A DNA stretch of 64,000 nt from Quadrisphaera granulorum (GTDB lineage Bacteria > Actinomycetota > Actinomycetes > Actinomycetales > Quadrisphaeraceae), in the NCBI RefSeq assembly GCF_003149145.1, contig NZ_QGDQ01000027.1, positions 1-64,000 of the forward strand. The letters are read 5' to 3'. Shown piece after piece: positions 33,927 through 57,423 of the stretch. The first letter of the stretch is position 1; every line of letters begins with the position of its first letter. Made by a program: the position numbers and the translations under genes. The notes beneath the pieces are model-generated. The model saw only the letters and a program-made list of their open reading frames with translations, was not told where the DNA came from and did not search any database.

Positions 33927-33939
33927 GGCGGGATCTCCT

Positions 33940-34030
33940 CCATCGGTCCTGGCGGGAGCACCTGCCTCGTCCGCGGACGGGCTGGTTGCTGCGGCGTCGA
34001 CGAGCCAGATCTCTCGGCCGCTCTGGATGG
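33940..34030 (-). promoter_or_regulatory. SAM-I (S-box) riboswitch 1, upstream of flavin reductase
   Basis: On the minus strand the conserved aptamer landmarks occur in order: P1 CCATC (complement of 34026-34030), CAGAGCGGCCGAGAG, a CGACGCCGCAGCAACC segment, GGTGCTCCCGCC, then P1' GATGG (complement of 33940-33944). GGAGGAG, the ribosome binding site of the reductase, runs straight on from P1', so control is probably at translation initiation. There is no room for a separate terminator. Confidence 0.9.
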
Positions 34031-34104
34031 GCGTCTCAGATCGTCTCCCGCCCGACAGCCGCCTGTCAACGCGGCTCACCCGAGCCACCGTCTAGCGTGG
34101 CCGT

Positions 34105-37005: not shown

Positions 37006-37893
37006 TCAGACCAGGCCCGCGACGGCCCCCGCGAGCCGCACGACGTCGAGCGCGTCGTCGCCGTCGCCGACCGGCTGGAGCACCACCGACGTCGCGCCAG
37101 CCTCGCCGTAGGCGCGGACCAGGGCTGCGACCTCCTCGGGCGTCCCCACGAGCGGCGTGGCCGGGCGGGCGTTGCCCCAGCCGTCGGCCTCGACGTCGAT
37201 GCGCTCGCGCGCCCGCTCTCCCACCGCCGACGGCACAAAGACCACCACGTGGAACGTCGGGTCGCCGACACGCCCCGTGTGCCGGACGGAAGCGGCGACC
37301 TGCTCCGGCGACGGCCCGGCGTCGAGGATGACGCCGTCGGACCGCTCCCCCGCCAGCGCCAGCGTCTTCGGCCCGCGGGCGCCCACCAGCAGGGGCGGCA
37401 CCACGTGCGGCGGGTGGTCGAGCCGCACGTCGTCGAGGTGGACGTAACGGCCGTCAGCGCCGACGCGCTCACCGCGCAGCAGCGGCGCCAACACCTCGAG
37501 GTGCTCGCGCAGCAGCGTCATCGGGGAGGCCTCCCGGGCGCCGACCTGCCCCATCCAGTCGAGCACGCCGTGCCCGACACCGGGCAGGAACCGCCCGGGG
37601 AAGGCCCGAGCCAACGCGGCGACCTCCATGGCCGTCAGCGCCGGGTTCCGCAGCGGCACGGGCATGAGCCCCAGGCCCACGTGGATCGTCGAGGTCCACG
37701 CCAGCGCGAGCGCGGACGAGGTGAGCCCACCGGCCCAGAAGCAGTCCTCCCACAGCCACAGCTCGTGCGCACCTGCCTGCTCTGCGGCGGTGGCGTGCTC
37801 GCGCAGCACCTCCGGTGGCTGCTGCGGGCGAACGACCACCCCCACGGCCAAGGACGAGGACGACGACGACGGCTGCGCGGCGCTGCTGGGCAC
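37006..37893 (-). CDS. LLM-class oxidoreductase (probable F420- or flavin-dependent)
   Basis: A 295-residue luciferase-like monooxygenase-fold protein. GLGLMPVPLRNPALTAMEVAAL, FLPGVGHGVLDWMGQVG, PPLLVGARGPKTLALAGERSDGVIL and VGTPEEVAALVRAYGEAGATSVVLQPV are typical of the actinobacterial F420-dependent subgroup. The cofactor is an inference from those motifs. The start is GTG 37891-37893; the frame upstream overlaps the adjacent SDR gene and is not used. Confidence 0.85.
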   Translation of the reverse strand: MPSSAAQPSSSSSSLAVGVVVRPQQPPEVLREHATAAEQAGAHELWLWEDCFWAGGLTSSALALAWTSTIHVGLGLMPVPLRNPALTAMEVAALARAFPGRFLPGVGHGVLDWMGQVGAREASPMTLLREHLEVLAPLLRGERVGADGRYVHLDDVRLDHPPHVVPPLLVGARGPKTLALAGERSDGVILDAGPSPEQVAASVRHTGRVGDPTFHVVVFVPSAVGERARERIDVEADGWGNARPATPLVGTPEEVAALVRAYGEAGATSVVLQPVGDGDDALDVVRLAGAVAGLV

Positions 37894-37910
37894 GACGCGC
37901 AGCCTGCCAG

Positions 37911-38678
37911 CTACCCCTCGGGGAGCACCTGCCCGCCGTCCACGACGAGGCTCTGGCCGGTGACGTACCCCGCCTGCTCGCTGGCGAAGAAGAGAGCCGC
38001 AGCGGCGATGTCGTCGACGGTGCCGAGCCGGCCCAGCGGCACGGCGTCGGCCATCGTCTGCAGGTACTCGGCGCCCAGCTCGTGCAGGCCCTCGGTGAGC
38101 ACGTTCCCGGGGAGCACCGCGTTCACCGTCACCCCGTGGGGTGCCAGCTCGATCGCCGCCGTCCTCATGAAGCCGAGCTGGGCGGCCTTGGATGCGCCGT
38201 AGTGCGACCAGCCGGCGTCGCCGGTGATCGGGCCGGTGATCGAGGAGGTGAGCACCACACGACCGCGGGGGGAGGCGCTGAGCAGCGGTGCGCACGCCGC
38301 GACGGCCAGGACGGTGCCCTTGACGTTGACCGAGAGCACCTCGTCGAGGTCTGCCTCCGTCATGGCGGTCAGCTCTGCCTTGGGAAAGATGCCGGCGTTG
38401 GCGCACAGCACGTCGAGGCCGCCCAGCTGATCGGCCACGGCCGCCGCCAGGGCGGCGCAGCCGGCGCCCGTGGAGACGTCGAGCGCCGCGTGCTGCACGT
38501 CGCCCCCTTCGGCGCGCAGGGCATGGGCGACCTCGGCGAGGTGCTGCTCCCCACGGGCGGTGAGCAGCACGCGCGCTCCCGCCCGCGCGAATCCGCGCGC
38601 GATGCCCAGGCCGATGCCGCGGCTGGCGCCGGTGACGGCGACGCGCACGCCGTCGAAGGAGGAGAACGAGGTGCTCAT
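37911..38678 (-). CDS. Short-chain dehydrogenase/reductase (FabG-like)
   Basis: A 255-residue classical SDR. The NAD(P) motif is VTGASRGIGLGIA (15-27), LCANAGIF is the NAG motif, LTSSITG supplies the catalytic Ser, and HYGASKAAQLGF the Tyr and Lys. PGNVLTEGL and GQSLVVDGGQVLPEG close the fold. ATG 38676-38678 is the natural family start. The next gene on the strand, the LLM protein, follows after 17 bp. The substrate is unknown. Confidence 0.92.
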   Translation of the reverse strand: MSTSFSSFDGVRVAVTGASRGIGLGIARGFARAGARVLLTARGEQHLAEVAHALRAEGGDVQHAALDVSTGAGCAALAAAVADQLGGLDVLCANAGIFPKAELTAMTEADLDEVLSVNVKGTVLAVAACAPLLSASPRGRVVLTSSITGPITGDAGWSHYGASKAAQLGFMRTAAIELAPHGVTVNAVLPGNVLTEGLHELGAEYLQTMADAVPLGRLGTVDDIAAAALFFASEQAGYVTGQSLVVDGGQVLPEG

Positions 38679-43012: not shown

Positions 43013-43045
43013 ACAGCGGGACCGGTGCGCTAGTCTCCCGCCACA

Positions 43046-43130
43046 CCATCCAGAGTGGCTGAGAGACCCGGCTCGTTGACGCCACAGCAACCACCCCTCG
43101 CAGGGCAGGTGCTACCGCCGGGACCGATGG
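43046..43130 (+). promoter_or_regulatory. SAM-I (S-box) riboswitch 2, upstream of organosulfur operon
   Basis: In order: P1 CCATC (43046-43050), CAGAGTGGCTGAGAG, CCGGCTCGTTGACGCCACA, GCAACC, GGTGCTACCGCC, and P1' GATGG (43126-43130). AGG directly after P1' is part of GGAGG, the ribosome site of a tiny ORF at 43139. The region 43013-43313 otherwise has no larger gene. The aptamer predicts repression of the downstream ABC/monooxygenase operon at high SAM. Confidence 0.92.
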
Positions 43131-43138
43131 AGGTCACC

Positions 43139-43165
43139 GTGTCTGCCTGTATGCCCCAGCGCTGA
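43139..43165 (+). CDS. Putative 8-residue cysteine-containing leader peptide
   Basis: GTG TCT GCC TGT ATG CCC CAG CGC TGA encodes MSACMPQR. Its GGAGG (43129-43133) overlaps the 3' strand of the S-box P1 helix, with good spacing to GTG. The combination of SAM aptamer, ribosome site and tiny ORF with Cys and Met codons mirrors the leader at 57244-57309 and suggests a second, translation-based sulfur sensor. It is too short for compositional proof. Confidence 0.45.
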   Translation: MSACMPQR

Positions 43166-43313
43166 GCCGTCGGCGCTACCCGCGCAGCGCCACCGCCAGC
43201 GCTCCCCCTCGCACCACCGCGCCCCGGATCACCGGGCCGCTGCCTCACGCCCGCTGATGGGCGGCAGTAACTCACCCGCGCCCTCGCTCGCCTTCGTCTG
43301 CCTGGAGAGTCCC

Positions 43314-44702
43314 GTGTCCCTGCTCCGCCGCTCCCCTTCGTCGTCCTCCCTCGCGGAAGCCGCGGCGCTGTCACGTCGCCAGCTGCTGCGCGCCGGCGTG
43401 CTGCTCGGCGGGGCCGCCGCCACCGCCGGATCCCTGGCTGCCTGCGGCTCCGGCGGCGGCGGGGAGGCGCTCGCAGCCCCCAGTGGCGACCCGACCAGCG
43501 CGCTGCAGGGCAAGACACTCAAGCTCATGGTCAACCAGCCGCACGTGGTGGCCTTCCGCGACCTGCTGGCGCCGGAGTTCGCCAAGCAGTTCGGCGGGAA
43601 GCTCGAGGTCACCGCCATCCCCTACGACCAGCTGACCAGCAAGCAGATCCTCGACGTCCAGGGCGGCGCGGGAGAGTTCGACGTCTTCGACTACTTCTAC
43701 TTCGGCCTCGGTGCCCTCGTCGACGCCGGTGCCCTCGTCGACCTCACCGACTACATCGGCGGCGACGCGAACATCAAGACCGACGACTTCCTGCCGTCGA
43801 TCTACGACGTCTACACCCAGATCGACGGCAAGCGGTACGGCCTGCCGTTCGACGGCGACACCCACGTCCTCTACTACAACGTCGCGCTGCTGGAGCAGTA
43901 CGGCCAGCAGCCGCCGAAGACCTGGGACGAGTACGACGCCGTGGCCAAGGCCATCACCGAGGCCGGCGGCGGGAAGGTCTACGGCGCCGCGGTGCTCGGC
44001 CAGCAGGTGCCGATGATCCTCGGCTGCTCCTTCATCAACCGCCTCGCCGGCTACGGCGGCACCCTGGTCGACGCCGGGGGCAACCCCACCCTGACCACCG
44101 ACGCGGCCAAGGCGTCCCTGCAGCACCTCATCGACGTGCAGCCCTACGCGCTGCCGACGCCGCTGCAGGTGGGCTTCGACGAGTCCAACAGCGCCTTCCT
44201 CCAGGGCACCGCGGCGATGATCGACACCTGGACCGACCTGGGCCTGCGCGCCAACGACCCGGCAAACTCGAAGATCGTCAACGGCTGGGGCGTCGTCCCG
44301 CTGCCCGTCGGCGGGTCGAACACCACGCCGCGCACGGCGCTCAACGCGGGCTTCGGCCTGGGCGTGTCGACCGCGAGCAAGGAGCGGGAGGCCGCGGCGG
44401 CGTTCGTGGCGTGGGCGACTGACAGCACCCGCAACCTGCTCCTGGCCAGCTACGGCGGCTCGGGCATCGACCCCAACCGCACCAGCGTGCTCGACTCCCC
44501 CGGCTACGCCAAGGCCAGCGCGCCGGCCACCGAGGTCATCGCCACCGGCCTGCGCGGCAACCCCCTGCCGTGGCCCACCGACGCCCAGTCGCCCAAGCGC
44601 CTGCAGGACCTCGTCGACCAGCTGGCGCTGGCCCTGTCCGGCTCCCAGGACGTCGAGACCTCGCTGTCCAAGGCGCAGGAGGCCTGGGAGAAGAGCGCAT
44701 GA
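43314..44702 (+). CDS. ABC transporter substrate-binding lipoprotein (sulfur-regulated)
   Basis: A 462-residue extracellular solute-binding protein, family 1 (sugar/polyamine type). The signal contains SRRQLLRAGVLLGGAAATAG and the lipobox LAAC, consistent with a Tat-exported lipoprotein. GTG 43314 has GGAGAG upstream; a further in-frame start at 43257 is less supported. The mature protein shows FDVFDYFYFG and GLPFDGDTHVLYYN, ligand-site-like features of the CUT1 group rather than of SsuA/TauA sulfonate binders. It is the first cistron after the SAM riboswitch and overlaps the first permease gene by 4 bp. The ligand is probably an organosulfur compound (inference). Confidence 0.9.
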   Translation: MSLLRRSPSSSSLAEAAALSRRQLLRAGVLLGGAAATAGSLAACGSGGGGEALAAPSGDPTSALQGKTLKLMVNQPHVVAFRDLLAPEFAKQFGGKLEVTAIPYDQLTSKQILDVQGGAGEFDVFDYFYFGLGALVDAGALVDLTDYIGGDANIKTDDFLPSIYDVYTQIDGKRYGLPFDGDTHVLYYNVALLEQYGQQPPKTWDEYDAVAKAITEAGGGKVYGAAVLGQQVPMILGCSFINRLAGYGGTLVDAGGNPTLTTDAAKASLQHLIDVQPYALPTPLQVGFDESNSAFLQGTAAMIDTWTDLGLRANDPANSKIVNGWGVVPLPVGGSNTTPRTALNAGFGLGVSTASKEREAAAAFVAWATDSTRNLLLASYGGSGIDPNRTSVLDSPGYAKASAPATEVIATGLRGNPLPWPTDAQSPKRLQDLVDQLALALSGSQDVETSLSKAQEAWEKSA

Positions 44703-45598
44703 GCACGACGACGCCGGCCGTGCGCCACGTCCCGCGGTGGCTGTCGCTGCCGCCGCTGGTGGCGATCGTCGTCCTGCTGGTCTACCCCACGGTGTTCGTC
44801 GTCGCGGCGAGCTTCACGAGGACGACGCTGGCCCGCCCGCTGCAGGAGTGGACCGGCTTCGCCAACCTCACGTCGGCGCTGCAGACCGAGGCGTTCGCGG
44901 GCTCTCTCGTGCGCACGCTGGTGTTCGCGGTGAGCGCCGCCGTCCTCGCGACGGCCATCGGTACGGCGGTGGCGCTGCTGCTGCGGGCTCGGACGGGTCG
45001 AGGAGAGGGCGGCTTCGGCGTGCTCGGCACGCTCCTGCTGCTGCCGCTGGTCACGCCGCCGGTCATGGTGGGCGTCGCGTGGAAGCTGCTGCTCGCACCC
45101 GCGGGCGGCGCGCTGACCAGCACCTTCAGCTCCCTCGTCGGGTCCCCGGTGAACCCGCTCGGCTCGTCGAGCACGGCGTTGGGCACTCTCGTGCTCATCC
45201 ACGTGTGGCAGTGGACGCCGCTCGTGGTGCTACTCGTCTTCGCCGCTCTGCTCGGCGTGCCCGACGAGCTGCTCGAGGCGGCGTCCCTCGACGGCGCCGG
45301 CGCGCTGCACACCTTCACCGCGGTGACCTGGCCCGTCGTCGCCCCGACGGTCCTGTCGGTGCTGTTCCTGGAGCTGGTGGTCGGCTTCAAGGTGTTCGAC
45401 CTGGTCGCCGTGGTCACCTCCGGCGGACCCGGCCTGTCGACGGTCGTGGCGAGCTTCGAGGTGTTCCGCACCGGCCTGCGCGGCGACTACGACGTCGGCA
45501 CCGCCGCCGCCATGACCCTCGTGCTGGGCCTGCTCGTCGGGGCTGTGACCGCTGGTGTCTCGGCGCTGCGCACCCGCGCCGCGGGGGCCGACGCATGA
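44699..45598 (+). CDS. ABC transporter permease (MalF/PotB type)
   Basis: A 299-residue membrane permease with six helices. LLLVYPTVFVVAASFTRTTL opens the first membrane segment, and the EAA loop is EAASLDGAGALHTFTAVTWP. ATG 44699 overlaps the binding-protein stop (ATGA), and the stop overlaps the next permease. It is part of the SAM-regulated importer. Confidence 0.92.
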   Translation: MSTTTPAVRHVPRWLSLPPLVAIVVLLVYPTVFVVAASFTRTTLARPLQEWTGFANLTSALQTEAFAGSLVRTLVFAVSAAVLATAIGTAVALLLRARTGRGEGGFGVLGTLLLLPLVTPPVMVGVAWKLLLAPAGGALTSTFSSLVGSPVNPLGSSSTALGTLVLIHVWQWTPLVVLLVFAALLGVPDELLEAASLDGAGALHTFTAVTWPVVAPTVLSVLFLELVVGFKVFDLVAVVTSGGPGLSTVVASFEVFRTGLRGDYDVGTAAAMTLVLGLLVGAVTAGVSALRTRAAGADA

Positions 45599-46557
45599 CG
45601 CAGCTCGCCGACCAGCGCCCGATCGCTGCAGCGCAGGAGGCCGCCGTGGATCCCGCCGTGAACAGCAGCTCGACGACGACGAGCGCCGCCGAGCTCGAGC
45701 AGCTGCGCCGAGCGCGGCCTCGCGGGCCGCACCGCCGCTCGCCGCTGGCGCAGGTCGGTGTGCGCCTGGCGCTGGCGCTCGTCGCCGTCGTCGCGCTTGC
45801 ACCGGTCGCGTTCCTCGTATCGCTGTCGGTGCGCTCCACCGACGACGTCCTCACCGGCTCCTGGCTGCCCGGAGGGTTCGGTGAACTCGCCTGGGGCAAC
45901 TGGAGCGCGGCCTTCCGGACCATCCCACTGGCGCACATGCTCGCCAACTCCTGGCTCGTGGCGCTCGGGTCAGCGCTGGTCACGGCCGTCGTCGCGGTGC
46001 CGGGCGCTTACGTCACCGCCCGCGCCGGCAAGCGCGGTGCGCGCCTGAGTGCTGCGCTGCTCGCGGGGTACTGCGCGCCGCCCGTCGTCGCCGTCCTCCC
46101 GCTGTTCTTCCTCCTCAAGGAGGTCGGCCTCACCAACAGCGTGGTGGGTCTGGCGCTCGTCAACGGCCTGGCCAACGCGCCGGTGGCCGTGTGGCTGCTC
46201 GACTCCTTCGTTCGCCGCGTGCCGGTGGAGCTGGAGGAGGCCGCCTGGCTGGACGGGCTGTCCGTGGCCGGCGGGCTGCGCCGCATCGTGCTCCCGCTCA
46301 TCGCGCCCGGCCTCGTGGCGGCGCTGCTGGTGTGCACGTTCCTCGCGTACGGGGAGTTCCTCTTCGCCGTCTCCTTCGCGCAGACCACCGCCAGCCAGCC
46401 GCTGACCGTGGGCCTGTCGCTCTTCCAGGGCGACCGCACCGTGCAGTTCGGCCAGCAGGCCGCCGCCGCGCTGGTGGGCGTCGTCCCCGTGTACGTGCTC
46501 GCCGTCGTCGCCCAGCGCTGGCTGGTCGGCGGCCTGTCGCAAGGAGCCCTCAAGTGA
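45595..46557 (+). CDS. ABC transporter permease (MalG/PotC type)
   Basis: A 320-residue permease. A cytoplasmic head of about 50 residues, rich in Ser/Thr/Arg, precedes six helices. The EAA loop is EAAWLDGLSVAGGLRRIVLP and the tail ends GGLSQGALK. ATG 45595 overlaps the previous stop, and its own stop overlaps the start of the monooxygenase gene (GTGA). No ATPase gene follows, which is unusual for a self-contained sulfonate importer and suggests use of a shared CUT1 ATPase. Confidence 0.92.
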   Translation: MTQLADQRPIAAAQEAAVDPAVNSSSTTTSAAELEQLRRARPRGPHRRSPLAQVGVRLALALVAVVALAPVAFLVSLSVRSTDDVLTGSWLPGGFGELAWGNWSAAFRTIPLAHMLANSWLVALGSALVTAVVAVPGAYVTARAGKRGARLSAALLAGYCAPPVVAVLPLFFLLKEVGLTNSVVGLALVNGLANAPVAVWLLDSFVRRVPVELEEAAWLDGLSVAGGLRRIVLPLIAPGLVAALLVCTFLAYGEFLFAVSFAQTTASQPLTVGLSLFQGDRTVQFGQQAAAALVGVVPVYVLAVVAQRWLVGGLSQGALK

Positions 46558-48059
46558 CCTCGTCCAGCCCAGAGCCCCGCCCCAAGGACAGGATCTTCCT
46601 CAACGCCTTCGACATGACGTGCGTGGCGCACCAGTCGCCGGGCCTGTGGCGGGTGCCCGGTGACCAGAGCCACCGCTACAACGACCTGTCCTACTGGACC
46701 GACCTGGCGAAGCTGCTCGACCGTGGTGGCTTCGACGTGCTGTTCATCGCCGACGTGCTCGGCATCTACGACGTCTACAAGGGCGGCCCGGAGACAGCGC
46801 TCACCGAGGGCACGCAGGTGCCCGTCGGTGACCCGCTGCTCGCCGTCTCGGCGATGGCCGCGGTCACCGAACGCCTCGGCTTCGCCCTCACGGTGTCGCT
46901 GACGTACGAGAAGCCCTACGCGCTCGCCCGAGACTTCGCCACCCTCGACCACTACACGAAGGGCCGCGTCGGCTGGAACGTCGTGACGTCCTACCTGGAG
47001 AGCGCGGCGAAGAACCTCGGCCTCGACACGCAGGTCGAGCACGACCAGCGCTACGAGGTCGCCGAGGAGTTCCTCGACGTCACCTACCAGCTGTGGGAGG
47101 GCTCCTGGGAGGACGGCGCCGTGGTGCGCGACGCCGCGCGCGGCGTCTACACCGATCCGGCGCGCGTGCACCCGATCGAGCACCACGGCCGCTACTACGA
47201 CGTGCCGGGCATCGCGCTGACGGAGCCGAGCCCGCAGCGCACGCCGTTCGTCTTCCAGGCCGGCGCCTCCCCGCGGGGCGTGCGGTTCGCCGCGCGGCAC
47301 GCCGAGGCCGTGTTCAACACCGCCAGCCGCACCGAGGTCATGCGGCCCCAGGTCGACGCGCTGCGCGCCGAGGCGGCGAAGGCCGGTCGTGACCCGCGCA
47401 GCATCAAGGTGTTCTCGCTGCTCACCGTGGTGACGGCCGCCACCGACGAGGAGGCGTGGGCGAAGTACGAGCAGCTGAAGAGCTACGTCTCCTACGACGG
47501 CGCGCTGACCCTCTACGCCGGCTGGAGCGGGCTGGACCTGTCGACGTACCCGCCGGACGAGCCGCTGGAGTACGCCGAGACGCAGGCCGTGCGCTCCGCG
47601 GTGGCCGCGTTCTCCACCGCCGATCCCGACCGGCAGTGGACTCCGCGCGACATCGCCGCGTGGGTGGGCATCGGCGGCATGGGTGTTGTCGTCGTCGGGG
47701 GTCCGCAGACCGTCGCCGACGAGCTGGAGCGGTGGGTGCGTGACGCCGACGTCGACGGCTTCAACCTCGCGTACGCGACGACGCCGGGCACCTTCGAGGA
47801 CATCGTCGAGCACGTCGTGCCCGAGCTGCGCCGCCGCGGGCTGATCCCCACCCAGGACGAGCGCGACGCGCTGCCCGCCGGGACCACGCTGCGTGAGGCG
47901 ATCTACGGCGTGGGCAGGCGCCGCATCGCCGAGGACCACCCCGCGGCCGTGCACCGCCGCGCCCTGCAGGCCAAGGCCGCGGCCCGCGCGGCTGCGGAGG
48001 ACCCCACCACCACCGCCACTCCCCCGTCCGCGACGTTCAAGGAAGTTGCGCCCCGATGA
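46554..48059 (+). CDS. NtaA/SnaA/DszA-family FMNH2-dependent monooxygenase
   Basis: A 501-residue luciferase-fold monooxygenase. It begins with KDRIFLNAFDMTCVAHQSPG and has GVYTDPARVHPIEHHGRYYDVPG, VFQAGASPRGVRFAARHAEAVF and NLAYATTPGTFEDIVEHVVP, the typical NtaA/DszA pattern. Such enzymes use reduced FMN to oxidise and cleave organosulfur or aminopolycarboxylate substrates. GTG 46554 overlaps the permease stop. With the adjacent DszC-like enzyme and SAM control, a desulfurisation role is most likely. FMNH2 could come from the S-box-controlled reductase at 33429. Confidence 0.92.
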   Translation: MTSSSPEPRPKDRIFLNAFDMTCVAHQSPGLWRVPGDQSHRYNDLSYWTDLAKLLDRGGFDVLFIADVLGIYDVYKGGPETALTEGTQVPVGDPLLAVSAMAAVTERLGFALTVSLTYEKPYALARDFATLDHYTKGRVGWNVVTSYLESAAKNLGLDTQVEHDQRYEVAEEFLDVTYQLWEGSWEDGAVVRDAARGVYTDPARVHPIEHHGRYYDVPGIALTEPSPQRTPFVFQAGASPRGVRFAARHAEAVFNTASRTEVMRPQVDALRAEAAKAGRDPRSIKVFSLLTVVTAATDEEAWAKYEQLKSYVSYDGALTLYAGWSGLDLSTYPPDEPLEYAETQAVRSAVAAFSTADPDRQWTPRDIAAWVGIGGMGVVVVGGPQTVADELERWVRDADVDGFNLAYATTPGTFEDIVEHVVPELRRRGLIPTQDERDALPAGTTLREAIYGVGRRRIAEDHPAAVHRRALQAKAAARAAAEDPTTTATPPSATFKEVAPR

Positions 48060-49228
48060 GCACCACCGACTGGACCCTGGCCGCCCGCGACGCCGCCGCG
48101 AAGCTCGCGGTCGACGCCCTCGAGCGAGACCGCGCCAACGCTGAACCCCTCGCGGAGGCCCAGCTACTGCGCGAGCACCGCCTGCCGGGCCTGCTGCTGC
48201 CCGTCGAGGTCGGCGGTGGCGGCGGGACGTGGGCCGACGCACTGCGGGCCGTGCGCGAGGTGGCCGTGGCCGACGGCTCCATCGCGCAGCTTCTGGGTTA
48301 CCACTACGTCAACCAGGCCAACCTCGACTGGGTGGCCGACGCGGCGACCCGCGAGCGCTGGCAGCGGCGCTCCGGCGCCGCGCAGTGGCTGTGGGGTGAC
48401 GCGGTCAACCCCGTCGACCCCGACCTCACGCTCACCCCGGCGGGTCAGGGCGGTTACCGCCTCAACGGCCGCAAGAGCTTCGCCACCGGCGTCAGCAGCG
48501 GTGACGTGTCCGTGGTGTCCGGCCAGGACTCGGCGACCGGGCGCCACGTGCTCGTCGTCGTCGAGCGCGGCGCTGCCGGCGTGCAGCCCGGCGGCGACTG
48601 GGACAACCTCGGGCAGCGCCTCTCGGCCTCCGGCAGCGTCACCTTCACCGACGTCGAGGTACCGGCCGAGAACGTACTGGGCTTCCTCGACGGCGACGCC
48701 GCCACCCCGCGCGCCTCCCTGGTGACCCCGGCGATCCAGGCGGTGTTCGGCAACTTCTACGTCGGCGTGGTGCGCGGTGCACTGCAGACCGCGGCGGAGT
48801 ACACGAGGACGACGTCGAGGGCGTGGCTGCTGTCGGACTCGCCCAGCGCTGCGCAGGACCCGTACGTGCTGGCCACCTACGGGCGGCTCGTGGCGCGGCT
48901 GCGTGCCGCCGAGGCGCTGGCGGACTCCGCGGGTGAGGCGCTCACCGCCGCCGACGCCGCCGGTGACGCGCTGACCTGGGACGAGCGCGGCGAGCTGGCC
49001 GAACTCGTCGCGGCGCTCAAGGTGGTCTCCTCCGACCTGGCGGTCGAGGCGACGTCGGCGGTGTTCGAGGTGACGGGCGCCCGGGCCACGAGCAACCGCG
49101 TGGGCCTGGACCGGTTCTGGCGCAACGTGCGCACGCACACCCTCCACGACCCGGTGCAGTACAAGGCGCGCGAGGTGGGTGACCACTTCCTCAACGGCAC
49201 CCACCCGGAGTTCACGCTCTACACCTGA
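48056..49228 (+). CDS. DszC/SfnC-like flavin monooxygenase (acyl-CoA dehydrogenase fold)
   Basis: A 390-residue protein of the acyl-CoA dehydrogenase-like monooxygenase group. LLLPVEVGGGGGTWADALRAVREVA, GDGSIAQLLGYHYVNQANLDW-type substrate-lid residues (here VADGSIAQLLGYHYVN) and GRKSFATGVSSGD are typical. The C-terminal helical domain includes SSDLAVEATSAVFEVTGARAT. It lacks clear CoA-dehydrogenase catalytic glutamate context and is best read as an FMNH2-using sulfoxidase like DszC. Its ATG overlaps the previous stop (ATGA), and it ends the SAM-regulated operon. Confidence 0.88.
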   Translation: MSTTDWTLAARDAAAKLAVDALERDRANAEPLAEAQLLREHRLPGLLLPVEVGGGGGTWADALRAVREVAVADGSIAQLLGYHYVNQANLDWVADAATRERWQRRSGAAQWLWGDAVNPVDPDLTLTPAGQGGYRLNGRKSFATGVSSGDVSVVSGQDSATGRHVLVVVERGAAGVQPGGDWDNLGQRLSASGSVTFTDVEVPAENVLGFLDGDAATPRASLVTPAIQAVFGNFYVGVVRGALQTAAEYTRTTSRAWLLSDSPSAAQDPYVLATYGRLVARLRAAEALADSAGEALTAADAAGDALTWDERGELAELVAALKVVSSDLAVEATSAVFEVTGARATSNRVGLDRFWRNVRTHTLHDPVQYKAREVGDHFLNGTHPEFTLYT

Positions 49229-54415: not shown

Positions 54416-54439
54416 GTCGACCTAGAAGTCGACCTAGAA
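54416..54439. repeat. 12-bp tandem duplication spanning a stop codon
   Basis: GTCGACCTAGAA occurs twice (54416-54427 and 54428-54439). On the minus strand each copy contains TAG in the same frame, so the monooxygenase gene ends at one TAG and has a second in-frame TAG four codons later. Confidence 0.8.
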
Positions 54440-55759
54440 ATCGAAGAGGTTCGCGCGGGCTCCGCCGTCACCGAACTCGTGCCGCAGCACGCCGCGACGG
54501 CGCAGCACGGGCACCAGCTCGTCGAAGAGACGGTGCAGCGTCACCGGGTGCAGGTCACCGGAGAGCAGCACCCCGTCGTTGTCGGCCTCCTCCCCTAACT
54601 CCTCGATCAGGTCCGCGATCTCCTCGGCGGTGCCGACCAGGCCCTCGCGCTTCGCGACCAGGCCCTTGCGGGCCCGGCGGCCCAGCACGTCGCGCAGCGG
54701 GGTGCTGGCGGGATCGTCGATGCCGGCGAACAGACCCTTGAGGGTGCCCCGCGAGACGTGCTGGCCGAAGGCGTCCGGCGGCAGCGGCGCGTCCAGATCG
54801 TGGGCGGTGAGGTCGGTCTCGAGGTCGCTGGACCAGTGCGCCGCGATGGTGAGCAGGTCCGCGTCGGTGGGGTGCAGGGACGCCGCCACCACGCGCTCGG
54901 CCTCCTCGCGGGAGGCCGCCACCTCGGCCTTGACCCAGAACAGCACCCGTACGTTCTCGGGCCGGCGGCCGGCGGCGCGAGCCGCCTCGTGCACGCGGGC
55001 GCGGTAGGCCCGGATGCTCGCGACGTCGAGGGGGGCGTACGCCAGCTGGACGTCGGAGTACGCCCCGGCGAAGGCGAGGCCGCGCGGGGATCCGCCGGGT
55101 GAGATCACGAGCGGTTCGCCGTCCCGCCCGTCGTCGAAGGGAGCGGCGTTGAGGGGACCGGTGACGTCGAAGTAGCGACCCTGGTGGCGCTGAGCGCGGA
55201 TACGGGTGCCGTCGGCGTATCGGCCGTCGGCCGCGACCAGGGCACCGTCCTCCCAGGAGCGCCACAGGTCCTTGACCAGCGAGGTCCACTCGTCGGCGCG
55301 GTCGTACGCGGCGTCATGATCGAGCGCAGGTGCACCGCTCACGTGCCGGGCACTGCCGGTGTCGGTGACCACGTTGAGACCGAAGCGGCCCCCGGAGAGG
55401 TGCTGCAGCGTGGCTGCCTGCCGGGCGGCGAGGTAGGGCGGGGTGATGCCGGCGTTGACCGTGGGGGCCAGCCCGATCCTCGATGTCGCGGCGAACAGGT
55501 ACGGCGCCAGCAGCAGCGGGTCGTGCTTGGGTCCGCCGTAGGCGCCGCGCACCCGCAGGTCGAGGGTCTCGGGGTTGCCGAGGGACACCGCGTCCTCCAT
55601 GACCACCAGGTCGACGCCGGCCCGCTCCAGCTCGCGCACCGCCTGCTGGTAGACGTCGGGACGGCGCCAGTCCCAGCCCCACGCCCAGTCGGGGCGGCCC
55701 CAGCCCTGCGGCCCGAAGCCGCGGGAGAAGAAGTACCCCACGTGCTGCAGACGGCTCAC
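54434..55759 (-). CDS. NtaA/SnaA/DszA-family FMN-dependent monooxygenase
   Basis: A 441-residue luciferase-fold monooxygenase. VDLVVMEDAVSLG, GLAPTVNAGITPPYLAARQAATLQHLSGGRFGLNVVTD and VISPGGSPRGLAFAGAYSDVQL are family features. A W-rich start (GFGPQGWGRPDWAWGWDW) is distinctive. Its ATG overlaps the metY stop by 4 bp, placing it in the SAM-riboswitch transcript with MetY. This implies release of inorganic sulfur from an organic donor for use by MetY after reduction (inference). Confidence 0.9.
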   Translation of the reverse strand: MSRLQHVGYFFSRGFGPQGWGRPDWAWGWDWRRPDVYQQAVRELERAGVDLVVMEDAVSLGNPETLDLRVRGAYGGPKHDPLLLAPYLFAATSRIGLAPTVNAGITPPYLAARQAATLQHLSGGRFGLNVVTDTGSARHVSGAPALDHDAAYDRADEWTSLVKDLWRSWEDGALVAADGRYADGTRIRAQRHQGRYFDVTGPLNAAPFDDGRDGEPLVISPGGSPRGLAFAGAYSDVQLAYAPLDVASIRAYRARVHEAARAAGRRPENVRVLFWVKAEVAASREEAERVVAASLHPTDADLLTIAAHWSSDLETDLTAHDLDAPLPPDAFGQHVSRGTLKGLFAGIDDPASTPLRDVLGRRARKGLVAKREGLVGTAEEIADLIEELGEEADNDGVLLSGDLHPVTLHRLFDELVPVLRRRGVLRHEFGDGGARANLFDF

Positions 55760-57180
55760 GCGGCACCGTCCACACGCGAACCTTCGAGGCTCGCGTCGTG
55801 CGGGGTGGCCAGCTCCGCGGCCACCAGGGCGCGGCGCAGGTCGGCTTGCAGGTCCTCGACGTCCTCGATGCCGACGGACAGGCGCACCGTGCCAGGGCCG
55901 ATGCCGGCCCGCTCGCGCTCGGCCTCGGTGCGGTGGGCGTGCGTGGTCGAGGCGGGGTGGACCACGAGCGAGCGCACGTCGCCGAGGTGGGTCATGTGGC
56001 TGAACAGCTGCAGCGCCTCGATGAAGCGCCGCGCCGCCGGGGCGCCACCGCGCAGGGTCACCGCCAGCACCGCCCCGGAGCCCCGCGGCAGGTACCGGCG
56101 GGCCCGCTCGGCGGAGGGGCTGGAGGCGAGGCTGGCATGGTCGACGCGCAGCACCGCCGGCTGACGTTCGAGCCAGCCGGCCAGCAGCGCCGCGCTGCGG
56201 GAGTGCTGCGCCATCCGCAACGAGAGGGTCTCCACGCCCTGCTGCACGAGGAAGGCGTTGAACGGCGACAGGGTCGGTCCGAACCGTGCGGCGATGCCGT
56301 GGCGGGCGTGCTCGACGTAGGCGCGCTCGCCGTGCAGGTCCACCCAGCTCCGACCGCCAAGCACCGCGCTCGCCCCGGCGAGCTGCGGGAACAGTGGGGC
56401 GCCGGCGGCGTCGAGCCGGTCCCAGGCGAAGCCCCGGCCGCCGACGACGGCCCCACCGAGGGCGGTGCCGTGGCCGGAGAGGAACTTGCTGGCCGAGTGG
56501 ACGACGACGTCGGCGCCGTGCTCGAGCGGGCGCATGAGGTACGGCGTGGCGAGGGTGTTGTCGACGACGAGCGGCACGCCGTGGGCGTGCGCCACCTCTG
56601 CGACGGCCGCGACGTCGAGCACCTCGTTGCGCGGGTTGGACAGCGACTCCGCGAACAGCGCCCGGGTGGTGGGGCGCAGCAGGCGCTGCCAGGCGGCCGG
56701 GTCGGCGTGGTCGTGGACGAAGTCCACCGCGATACCGAACCGCGCGAAGTTCTCCGCGAACAGGCCGCGCGAGCCCTCGTAGAGGTGGTCGGAGGCGAGC
56801 AGGTGGTCTCCGGCCTGCAGTAGGCCGAGCAGCGCGGTGGTGATGGCGGCCTGCCCCGAGCCGACCACGAGTGCCTCCGCTCCGCCTTCGAGCACGGCGA
56901 GCCGCCGCTCCAGGGCCGCCGTCGTCGGGTTGGCGATGCGGGAGTAGACGAACCCGTCCTCCTCGCCGGTGAAGCGGGCCGCGGCGGCCGCGGAGTCCTC
57001 GAAGCGGAACCCGGCGGAGACGTGGATCGGGGCGACGCGGTCTCCGTGGGGGCTGGACCCGTGGAGTCCCTCGTCACCGCCGTGGACCTGCTGGGTGGTG
57101 AAGCCGTACCCGGCGGTCCGGGAGAAGGAGGCGGGAAGGAGGGTGCGGGCAGTGGTCGAAACAGATGTCGAAGCGGGCAT
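55756..57180 (-). CDS. metY: O-acetylhomoserine sulfhydrylase (MetY-like)
   Basis: A 474-residue PLP enzyme of the Cys/Met metabolism family that makes homocysteine from O-acetylhomoserine and sulfide. Key features are FVYSRIANPTTAALERRLA, VGSGQAAITTALLGLLQAGD, FAESLSNPRNEVLDVAAVA, PLVVDNTLATPYLMRP with Asp207, and VVHSASKFLSGHG with the PLP lysine Lys232. ATG 57178-57180 has GAGAGG upstream. A small leader peptide and an SAM-I riboswitch precede it, so it should be repressed by SAM and possibly by cysteine. The product is probably direct sulfhydrylation to homocysteine. Confidence 0.93.
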   Translation of the reverse strand: MPASTSVSTTARTLLPASFSRTAGYGFTTQQVHGGDEGLHGSSPHGDRVAPIHVSAGFRFEDSAAAAARFTGEEDGFVYSRIANPTTAALERRLAVLEGGAEALVVGSGQAAITTALLGLLQAGDHLLASDHLYEGSRGLFAENFARFGIAVDFVHDHADPAAWQRLLRPTTRALFAESLSNPRNEVLDVAAVAEVAHAHGVPLVVDNTLATPYLMRPLEHGADVVVHSASKFLSGHGTALGGAVVGGRGFAWDRLDAAGAPLFPQLAGASAVLGGRSWVDLHGERAYVEHARHGIAARFGPTLSPFNAFLVQQGVETLSLRMAQHSRSAALLAGWLERQPAVLRVDHASLASSPSAERARRYLPRGSGAVLAVTLRGGAPAARRFIEALQLFSHMTHLGDVRSLVVHPASTTHAHRTEAERERAGIGPGTVRLSVGIEDVEDLQADLRRALVAAELATPHDASLEGSRVDGAA

Positions 57181-57197
57181 GACGGACCTCTCGGGGC

Positions 57198-57213
57198 GCG
57201 CCAACGCTGGCGC
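57198..57213 (-). promoter_or_regulatory. Hairpin next to metY ribosome binding site
   Basis: GCGCCA (57198-57203) pairs with TGGCGC (57208-57213) with a 4-nt loop, 6 bases from the metY GAGAGG. Together with complementary GGCGGC/GCCGCC segments at 57231-57236 and 57256-57261 that span the end of the leader peptide, this could form an attenuator. Structures were found by eye only. Confidence 0.4.
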
Positions 57214-57243: not shown

Positions 57244-57309
57244 TCAGCGTCGACAGCCGCCGCTCGTCACGAGAGCGAGGTCGATGTGCAGGCGTCGGAC
57301 GAGCAACAC
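57244..57309 (-). CDS. Putative cysteine leader peptide (RRLHIDL...C type)
   Basis: A 21-residue ORF, MLLVRRLHIDLALVTSGGCR plus a final R, with GGAGG five bases before GTG 57307-57309. The Arg-Arg-x-His-(I/V)-Asp-Leu core with a terminal Cys matches small leader peptides often found ahead of actinobacterial sulfur-assimilation genes; cysteine-responsive attenuation by short Cys-rich ORFs is known in mycobacteria. It lies between the SAM-I aptamer (from 57318) and metY. The Cys codon directly follows GGC GGC, which can pair with downstream GCCGCC, so a ribosome stalled at Cys would change the structure near metY. Confidence 0.78.
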   Translation of the reverse strand: MLLVRRLHIDLALVTSGGCRR

Positions 57310-57317
57310 GGTGTCCT

Positions 57318-57423
57318 CCATCGGCCGTGGCGGGAGCACCTGACGCCGTCCCGGGGGGACTGCGCGGGTTGCTGCGGCGTCGACGAGCCACGTCTCTCGG
57401 CCGCTCTGGATGGTCGGCGACGA
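57318..57423 (-). promoter_or_regulatory. SAM-I (S-box) riboswitch 3, upstream of leader peptide and metY
   Basis: On the minus strand: P1 CCATC (complement of 57419-57423), CAGAGCGGCCGAGAG, TGGCTCGTCGACGCC, GCAGCAACC, GGTGCTCCCGCC and P1' GATGG (complement of 57318-57322). Long stretches of the core are near-identical to riboswitch 1. GGAGG for the leader peptide begins within P1', so SAM binding would directly limit leader translation. Confidence 0.92.

Follow-up and report, generated by a model that had tools for sequence, protein, structure and literature searches.

The window analysed here, 64,000 nucleotides of Quadrisphaera granulorum (contig NZ_QGDQ01000027.1, positions 1 to 64,000 of the forward strand), contains an operon in which an S-box, a riboswitch for S-adenosylmethionine (SAM), precedes the binding lipoprotein and the two permeases of a CUT1-type sugar importer, followed by two flavin monooxygenases. 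The features of this operon, in window coordinates, are the following:

43043..43133, forward strand: SAM-I (S-box) aptamer, above the gathering score of RF00162 in the Rfam search (58.3 vs 44.4 bits, E 6.7e-11)
43139..43165, forward strand: putative leader open reading frame (ORF), MSACMPQR followed by a stop, predicted to be translated, in which Cys-Met-x-x-Arg-stop is kept in three sister genomes
43314..44702, forward strand: CUT1-type solute-binding lipoprotein, GTG start, PF01547 (SBP_bac_1) 126.7 bits
44699..45598, forward strand: permease 1, UgpA/MalF-like, ATG start, PF00528 (BPD_transp_1)
45595..46557, forward strand: permease 2, MalG/UgpE-like, ATG start, PF00528 (BPD_transp_1)
46554..48059, forward strand: luciferase-like monooxygenase of the NtaA/DmoA family, dependent on flavin mononucleotide (FMN), GTG start, TIGR03860 547 bits
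48056..49228, forward strand: flavin monooxygenase of the DszC/MsuC/SfnB type, ATG start, PDB matches DszC 271 and MsuC 259 bits
49238..49293, no strand assigned: inverted repeat with 24-nt arms and an 8-nt loop, recognised by eye, probable terminator

All four gene junctions of the operon are 4-bp overlaps; no ATPase gene is found within it and no glycosidase among its five genes. The succession of S-box, lipoprotein, two permeases and two flavin monooxygenases joined by such overlaps, as described in the initial annotation, was borne out by the Rfam search, the ORFs and the family profiles; the S-box itself was retained and only its start shifted, from 43046, which lies 3 nt inside the Rfam match, to 43043. 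We consider it probable that the operon is a SAM-repressed sulfur-scavenging module importing a sugar- or polyol-like organosulfur compound, which would be cleaved by the two flavin enzymes.

The luciferase-like enzyme scores far over the curated cut-off of the NtaA/DmoA family (279.7 bits), and its nearest solved relative is DmoA, the dimethyl-sulfide (DMS) monooxygenase (PDB 6ak1, 562 bits), followed by LadA (455), riboflavin lyase (312) and DszA (5tlc, 261); it remains below the SsuD/SmoC-type test of TIGR03565 (78.7 bits, cut-off 518.2). It had been called DszA-like, a label that gives way to DmoA-like, while the second enzyme keeps its assignment to the DszC/MsuC/SfnB type. The latter has an acyl-CoA-dehydrogenase fold and a motif, WLWGDAVNPVD, that aligns without gaps with MsuC (WFWGNALNPLD), whereas DszC carries a 5-residue insert. 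The operon resembles the Dsz/Bds 4S pathway (DszA, DszC) and the MsuC/SfnB systems in that an S-oxygenase of DszC fold accompanies a C-S cleaving enzyme of the luciferase family, but differs from 4S by the missed DszC and SfnB cut-offs, by the MsuC-like gapless motif and by the absence of any DszB-like gene among the five, which leaves the set of DszA, DszB and DszC incomplete. Cut-offs and nearest relatives both speak against filing the two enzymes as DszA and DszC. The difference from DmoA lies in the coupling to an importer and a DszC-like enzyme. DMS itself diffuses and needs no importer.

Sugar importers beside the two monooxygenases

The surroundings of DmoA-like genes were compared over the best 80 of 521 confirmed relatives, a selection biased toward near relatives, in which a strong DszC-like neighbour is a tblastn match of at least 200 bits within 6.5 kb of the DmoA-like gene and an importer is counted within the same distance. 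A sugar importer was present in 25 of the 33 loci with a strong DszC-like neighbour (17 CUT1, 8 CUT2, 8 neither) vs 2 of the 47 loci without (2 CUT1, 0 CUT2, 45 neither), with a Fisher p of 1e-11 that ignores kinship, for which the changes on the tree described below allow in part. CUT1 and CUT2 importers were not seen together, none of the 27 importer loci (19 CUT1, 8 CUT2) having both. The tree of DszC-like proteins has 37 rows, including 8 that lack an importer, and excludes L030 and L032, whose DszC-like matches are weak or cut; the CUT1/CUT2 label must change at least four times on it, once inside Quadrisphaera. Among the six genomes of this genus, CUT1 is found in four and CUT2 in two, again mutually exclusive, the two genomes with a DmoA-like gene and no CUT1 lipoprotein being exactly those with a ribose-type CUT2 set beside the DmoA-like gene. 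In Quadrisphaera INWT6 the CUT2 set is preceded by a SAM-IV riboswitch (92.5 bits) and diverges from the DmoA-DszC unit, whose S-box adjoins it back to back; the same arrangement occurs in a metagenome-assembled genome (MAG). Such pairs of SAM-IV and S-box on opposite strands, separated by a short gap and heading divergent units, were observed at L025:9655-9965 (INWT6), at L074:9573-9909 (Kocuria) and also in L081, L090 and L094.

Outside the genus, the gene orders vary. Three loci of Arthrobacter and Paeniglutamicibacter (L040, L055, L069) carry on one strand an S-box followed by the CUT2 binding protein, ATPase, two permeases, DmoA-like and DszC-like genes; CUT2 is also found in three Rathayibacter loci, and CUT1 in loci of Microbacterium, Mycetocola, Actinotalea and Phytohabitans. 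In the CUT1 operons of the f14/g17 genomes, taken to be Kineococcus, the check for a DszC-like gene next in line covered L029 and L169. The lipoprotein also matches 48 plasmid records, and in the two inspected, Rhizobium plasmids with a remote, proteobacterial version of the system, an ATPase-less CUT1 set (46, 41 and 47% identity) is divergent from a row of DmoA-like (53%), SfnB, SfnB and SsuD genes. Pseudomonas loci associate DmoA-like and SfnB-like genes, mostly without a sugar importer; in L100 (P. cerasi) a CUT2 set lies beyond the 6.5-kb limit and was therefore missed in the census, and a Rhizobiaceae MAG (L071) has CUT2-type ATPase and permease matches. In Arthrobacter sp. MYb214, a second S-box-like match (L055:11558-11648, 57.9 bits with our S-box model R1) stands between the DmoA-like and DszC-like genes, and in Pseudoclavibacter caeni (L041:10001-20236) three DmoA-like genes alternate with three DszC-like genes, with neither importer of the panel. 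An aldo-keto reductase of the YghZ type (441 bits, cut-off 448) takes part in the gene row of L176 and L177 and follows that row, in line, in L035 and L044, a placement that would fit the release of an aldehyde. This reductase was considered as a possible SmoB in L176: among solved proteins 9nz6 and YghZ come closest to it, and no entry named SmoB was among those listed, which excludes nothing.

As a chance neighbour the importer is ruled out by the census and by the changed gene orders. A related explanation, in which it is an unrelated neighbour merely carried on a shared transcript, could draw on the eight DmoA-DszC loci that lack it; against it stand the 4-bp overlaps, the contrast of 25/33 with 2/47, and an adjacency of importer and enzymes that is kept through differing gene orders and strands, and we hold it to be very improbable. 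The link of the enzymes to the sugar class of importers is stronger because relatives pair the same enzymes with a second, unrelated sugar importer, and this association points to sugar-like sulfur compounds for which bacteria compete. The exchange also makes the substrate testable, since ligands common to both binding proteins would define it.

The importer of the operon is assigned to CUT1 by its SBP_bac_1 protein and two MalF/MalG-type permeases, with no equivalog cut-off reached: the nearest NCBIfam models are UgpA, GlcT and MalF for permease 1 and GlcU, MalG and UgpE for permease 2, all far under their cut-offs. The lipoprotein begins with a twin-arginine-like signal and a lipobox, LAAC, recognised by eye. 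Its AlphaFold2 model (mean predicted local distance difference test 81.8) finds as folds 5iai (Z 46.5), MalE3 (42.9) and SmoF (42.6), and most of the 50 fold matches listed are, by title, sugar or glycoside binders; one of them, 6r1b, holds glycerophosphocholine. The lack of an ATPase gene had been presented as a special trait, a view abandoned here given that the genome has one OB_MalK ATPase, which passes the UgpC-type model (478 bits, cut-off 432). CUT1 importers sharing ATPases are usual in actinobacteria. The operon importer would be powered by this single MalK-type ATPase, and a MalK-type gene (56-57%) adjoins the unit in L176 and L177. Taken together, we give most weight to a sugar-like organosulfur compound, left unnamed, as the imported substrate.

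A sulfosugar or another sugar-like sulfonate, imported and desulfonated as in the sulfoquinovose monooxygenase (sulfo-SMO) pathway, is an alternative proposal. The sulfo-SMO importer has its own ATPase. According to PMC12890257, the sulfo-SMO steps are carried out by SquD/SmoC, which is an alkanesulfonate monooxygenase, together with a flavin reductase and an NAD(P)H reductase, and the pathway is placed in alpha- and beta-Proteobacteria. The likeness to this pathway, also called sulfo-ASMO, extends to the sugar-type binding protein (SmoF), the FMNH2-dependent C-S cleavage, the flavin reductase and the NAD(P)H reductase for the aldehyde, the last in some relatives, and a flavin reductase is co-regulated here; the SmoF fold match and the SsuD gene of the rhizobial cluster agree with it too. 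The earlier analogy thus holds for the layout and fails for the enzymes, which are of alkanesulfonate-monooxygenase type there and of DmoA and DszC type here, where a SAM riboswitch is a further difference. The operon has no SsuD-type enzyme and no glycosidase, a sulfonate, being fully oxidised, does not call for S-oxygenation of the DszC type, the relatives' reductase is of the YghZ type, and the SmoF match is tied with maltose and trehalose binders at 19% identity in the fold alignment. On this balance a sulfosugar seems unlikely to us.

We judge it slightly less likely still that the cargo is a non-sugar organosulfur compound, such as a sulfone or a bulky thioether, carried by a sugar-class importer of changed ligand. 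The named relatives DmoA, DszC, MsuC and SfnB do act on non-sugar sulfur compounds, and SfnG belongs to the same regulon; this explanation nevertheless demands that two unrelated classes of sugar importer shifted their ligand alike, and repeatedly.

S-box units in the genome and in its relatives

The S-box model R1 was made from six S-boxes of the own genome, one of INWT6 and one of K. rubinsiae, eight sequences that match it by construction. In the own genome, where 150 of 263 candidates were scored, six S-boxes were found, three of them in the window. Two further units of the window, 9 and 14 kb from the operon and absent from the initial annotation, are formed by the following features:

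33937..34033, reverse strand: second S-box aptamer, RF00162 49.2 bits
33429..33926, reverse strand: flavin reductase, first gene behind the second S-box, PF01613 96.8 bits, ATG 10 nt behind the aptamer
57315..57416, reverse strand: third S-box aptamer, 42.8 bits, just under the Rfam gathering score
57244..57309, reverse strand: putative leader ORF MLLVRRLHIDLALVTSGGCRR followed by a stop, with weak matches to NF042936 and NF042934, below cut-off
55756..57204, reverse strand: MetY (O-acetylhomoserine sulfhydrylase)-like enzyme dependent on pyridoxal phosphate, start codon unsettled, TIGR01326 474 bits, PDB 4kam 389
54434..55759, reverse strand: second NtaA-type monooxygenase, overlapping the MetY-like gene by 4 bp, TIGR03860 262 bits (cut-off 280), nearest PDB entry DszA with 171

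The flavin reductase is the likely supplier of FMNH2. The fourth S-box of the genome precedes a rhodanese, an SsuD-like and a DszC-fold protein and a peptide-type importer, the fifth an SsuA-family importer (207 bits, over cut-off) and the sixth SfnG (565 bits, over cut-off). The S-boxes of Q. granulorum therefore seem to govern organosulfur foraging, as a SAM-riboswitch regulon devoted to sulfur scavenging. Between the S-box units of the window, at 37009-37956 on the reverse strand, a luciferase-family oxidoreductase (F420/luciferase-like monooxygenase class) stands beside a short-chain dehydrogenase/reductase (SDR) gene, and no riboswitch was found there.

The lipoprotein has matches in 14 of 198 genomes sampled from the order, counting its own. 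At 66% identity or more it is found in 12 genomes, the own one, three of the same genus and eight of f14/g17; an S-box stands upstream in 11 of these 12 loci, the twelfth (L022) stopping at the contig end, and a DmoA-like gene follows closely on the same contig in 11, and on another contig in G014. S-box, lipoprotein and DmoA-like gene occur together in ten genomes (four Quadrisphaera, six f14/g17). The conservation of such a SAM-controlled organosulfur system, equipped with an importer of the sugar class, supports this part of the initial proposal. In G007, G101 and G129 a single contig likewise bears three S-boxes inside a span of 32-43 kb, including one in front of a MetY-like gene; an S-box heads the MetY-like gene in L116, L127, L130 and L131, from sister genomes. 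A Kineococcus-type genome shows 13 S-box matches, six of which lie within 33 kb (L167-L168, G078:C1:1216000-1254900) around NtaA/DmoA-type and peptide-importer genes, in what resembles an S-box organosulfur island.

Another explanation is that a methylthio-sugar such as methylthioribose is salvaged oxidatively: CUT1 or CUT2 would import it, and the DmoA-like enzyme would free from it methanethiol for direct conversion by MetY, with O-acetylhomoserine, to methionine. MetY enzymes can use methanethiol. DmoA as the nearest solved enzyme, the MetY-like gene 14 kb away and in sister genomes, and the swap for a ribose-type CUT2 importer are all favourable to it, as is the presence of 4ry8, titled as a 5-methylthioribose transporter, among the CUT2 fold matches. 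Salvage of methylthioadenosine and methylthioribose by the usual route finds no match to mtnA in the genome, and the sole PNP_UDP_1 gene is best matched by purine nucleoside phosphorylase models (mtnK, mtnB and others were not sought). However, 4ry8 ranks only 13th (Z 33.1, 25% identity), among lower matches of ribose type, far under 4wt7 (Z 41.8, 42% identity), which with 3l49 (46% identity) is the nearest fold of the CUT2 binding protein. In the two surroundings inspected, the nearest plasmid relatives of this CUT2 set are accompanied by sugar kinase, SDR and aldolase genes (L184) or by no recognised sulfur genes (L185), and a DmoA reaction alone would have no need of a DszC-type enzyme. Methylthio-sugar salvage is conceivable, if on the whole improbable.

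Proposed route and points for and against it

Under the preferred reading, that of a SAM-repressed module for a sugar- or polyol-like organosulfur compound, low SAM would open the S-box and let ribosomes reach the Shine-Dalgarno sequence situated, by its position in the sequence, in the aptamer 3' strand. The lipoprotein and the two permeases, driven by the single MalK-type ATPase, would import the compound, and the co-regulated flavin reductase would give FMNH2 to the DmoA-like and DszC/MsuC-like monooxygenases. As judged from their families, a DszC-type step may oxidise the sulfur and a DmoA-type step cut the C-S bond, the presumed products being a small unit that carries the sulfur (as sulfite, sulfinate or thiol) and an aldehyde. 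The S-box-led SsuD-, SfnG- and MetY-type enzymes could then pass sulfur units on to homocysteine and methionine, hence to SAM, which would close the loop.

Several observations weigh against this reading. On the side of linkage, both importers are missing from the surroundings of 8 of the 33 DmoA-DszC loci, and 45 of the 80 DmoA-like loci lack an importer as well as a strong DszC-like gene; an aldo-keto reductase is near in 3 of the 80, and at L098, a locus without importer, it is on the other strand. On the side of the proteins, the lipoprotein is only remotely related to proteins of solved structure, with which the fold comparison gives 16-26% identity, the DszC-like enzyme is under the cut-offs of the DszC model NF043015 (292.8 vs 850 bits) and of the SfnB model TIGR04022 (242.9 vs 430.9), it shares no more than 32% identity with the SfnB-type proteins of the rhizobial clusters, and the MetY-like enzyme is under the TIGR01326 cut-off of 495 bits. 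On the side of control, the whole leader folds no better than its shuffles (z 0.64), which speaks against a stable leader fold, and no S-box by R1 was accepted in the 19 CUT1 loci of the wider set of genome contigs, in which the upstream region of L029 is cut off and L052 gave a single 20-bit match (E 0.3). No S-box was found in the three Rathayibacter CUT2 loci, in the rhizobial clusters inspected or in L177, and L176 has a sub-threshold match only (29.2 bits with Rfam, 44.5 with R1).

These S-box-free distant loci rule out SAM control as a universal feature, and the sulfur-linked regulation anticipated for related operons holds for the near relatives but not for the distant ones of the same make-up, where the initial proposal fails by its own criterion. 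SAM control is therefore lineage-bound, and the wider trait is the link between importer and enzymes rather than the riboswitch.

Where aerobic bacteria are known to scavenge organosulfur compounds with two-component flavin monooxygenases, the compounds are small sulfonates, sulfones and thioethers, brought in by Ssu/Tau importers. Among the best-ranked entries listed by our literature searches, with most subscription journals outside their coverage, there was no paper on the present system, and the searches gave none combining "SAM riboswitch" with "alkanesulfonate monooxygenase"; in a 2013 work on regulons of RNA motifs, the words "sulfonate" and "monooxygenase" are absent from the main text (PMC3766115). 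The retention of the enzymes beside an exchanged, unrelated sugar importer suggests a sulfur-foraging route undescribed so far.

Leader frames behind the aptamers

The leader set comprised all R1 matches above 40 bits from three scans and three own sites, giving 87 listed and 69 distinct S-boxes. The aptamer 3' strand typically ends with GATGGAGG, and GGAG or GAGG is present at this end in 67 of the 69; in the operon, the GGAGG closing the aptamer can double as the Shine-Dalgarno sequence of the leader ORF. An ATG or GTG lies 4-9 nt behind the aptamer in 55 of the 69 S-boxes, vs a mean of 7.5 and a highest value of 17 in shuffled sequences (35 of an earlier hand-picked 46, shuffles mean 5.1). 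Starts 2-11 nt behind the aptamer open a long frame in 17 cases and a short one in 41, with neither in 11, and the 41 short frames contain a Cys codon in 32 cases and a motif of the RR-x-HVDL type in 28. When eight leaders were scanned against NF042934, a putative leader peptide family, that of L107 passed (30.9 vs 27), six remained below the cut-off and one had no match.

Translational repression by SAM is the likely mechanism, as far as can be read from the sequence. In the window, at 43130-43165 and 57244-57320, the SAM riboswitch and a leader-peptide control appear to be fused, and the translation of the leader may form a second, perhaps cysteine-sensing, layer of control. A union of the SAM riboswitch with cysteine-type leader peptides is likely. 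Short leader ORFs with Cys codons are likewise represented by the Cys-rich mycobacterial leaders Ms4527A and Ms5788A and by NF042934. According to PMC11260477, B12 riboswitches act together with translated upstream ORFs in M. tuberculosis, likewise a riboswitch working with such a frame. Unlike all of these, the SAM-I aptamer here provides the Shine-Dalgarno sequence of the leader. The most far-reaching version of the model would join this control to a methylthioribose-like substrate, our boldest candidate, taken up by CUT1 or CUT2, cleaved at its C-S bond by the flavin enzymes and recaptured as methionine by MetY, with the S-box gating a cysteine-reading leader so that SAM and cysteine are read jointly; we offer it as a speculation with little chance of holding in full. 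Leaders of the RR-x-HVDL...C type, akin to Cys leader peptides, were also observed behind the S-boxes of L015-L021, L027, L130, L131 and L171.

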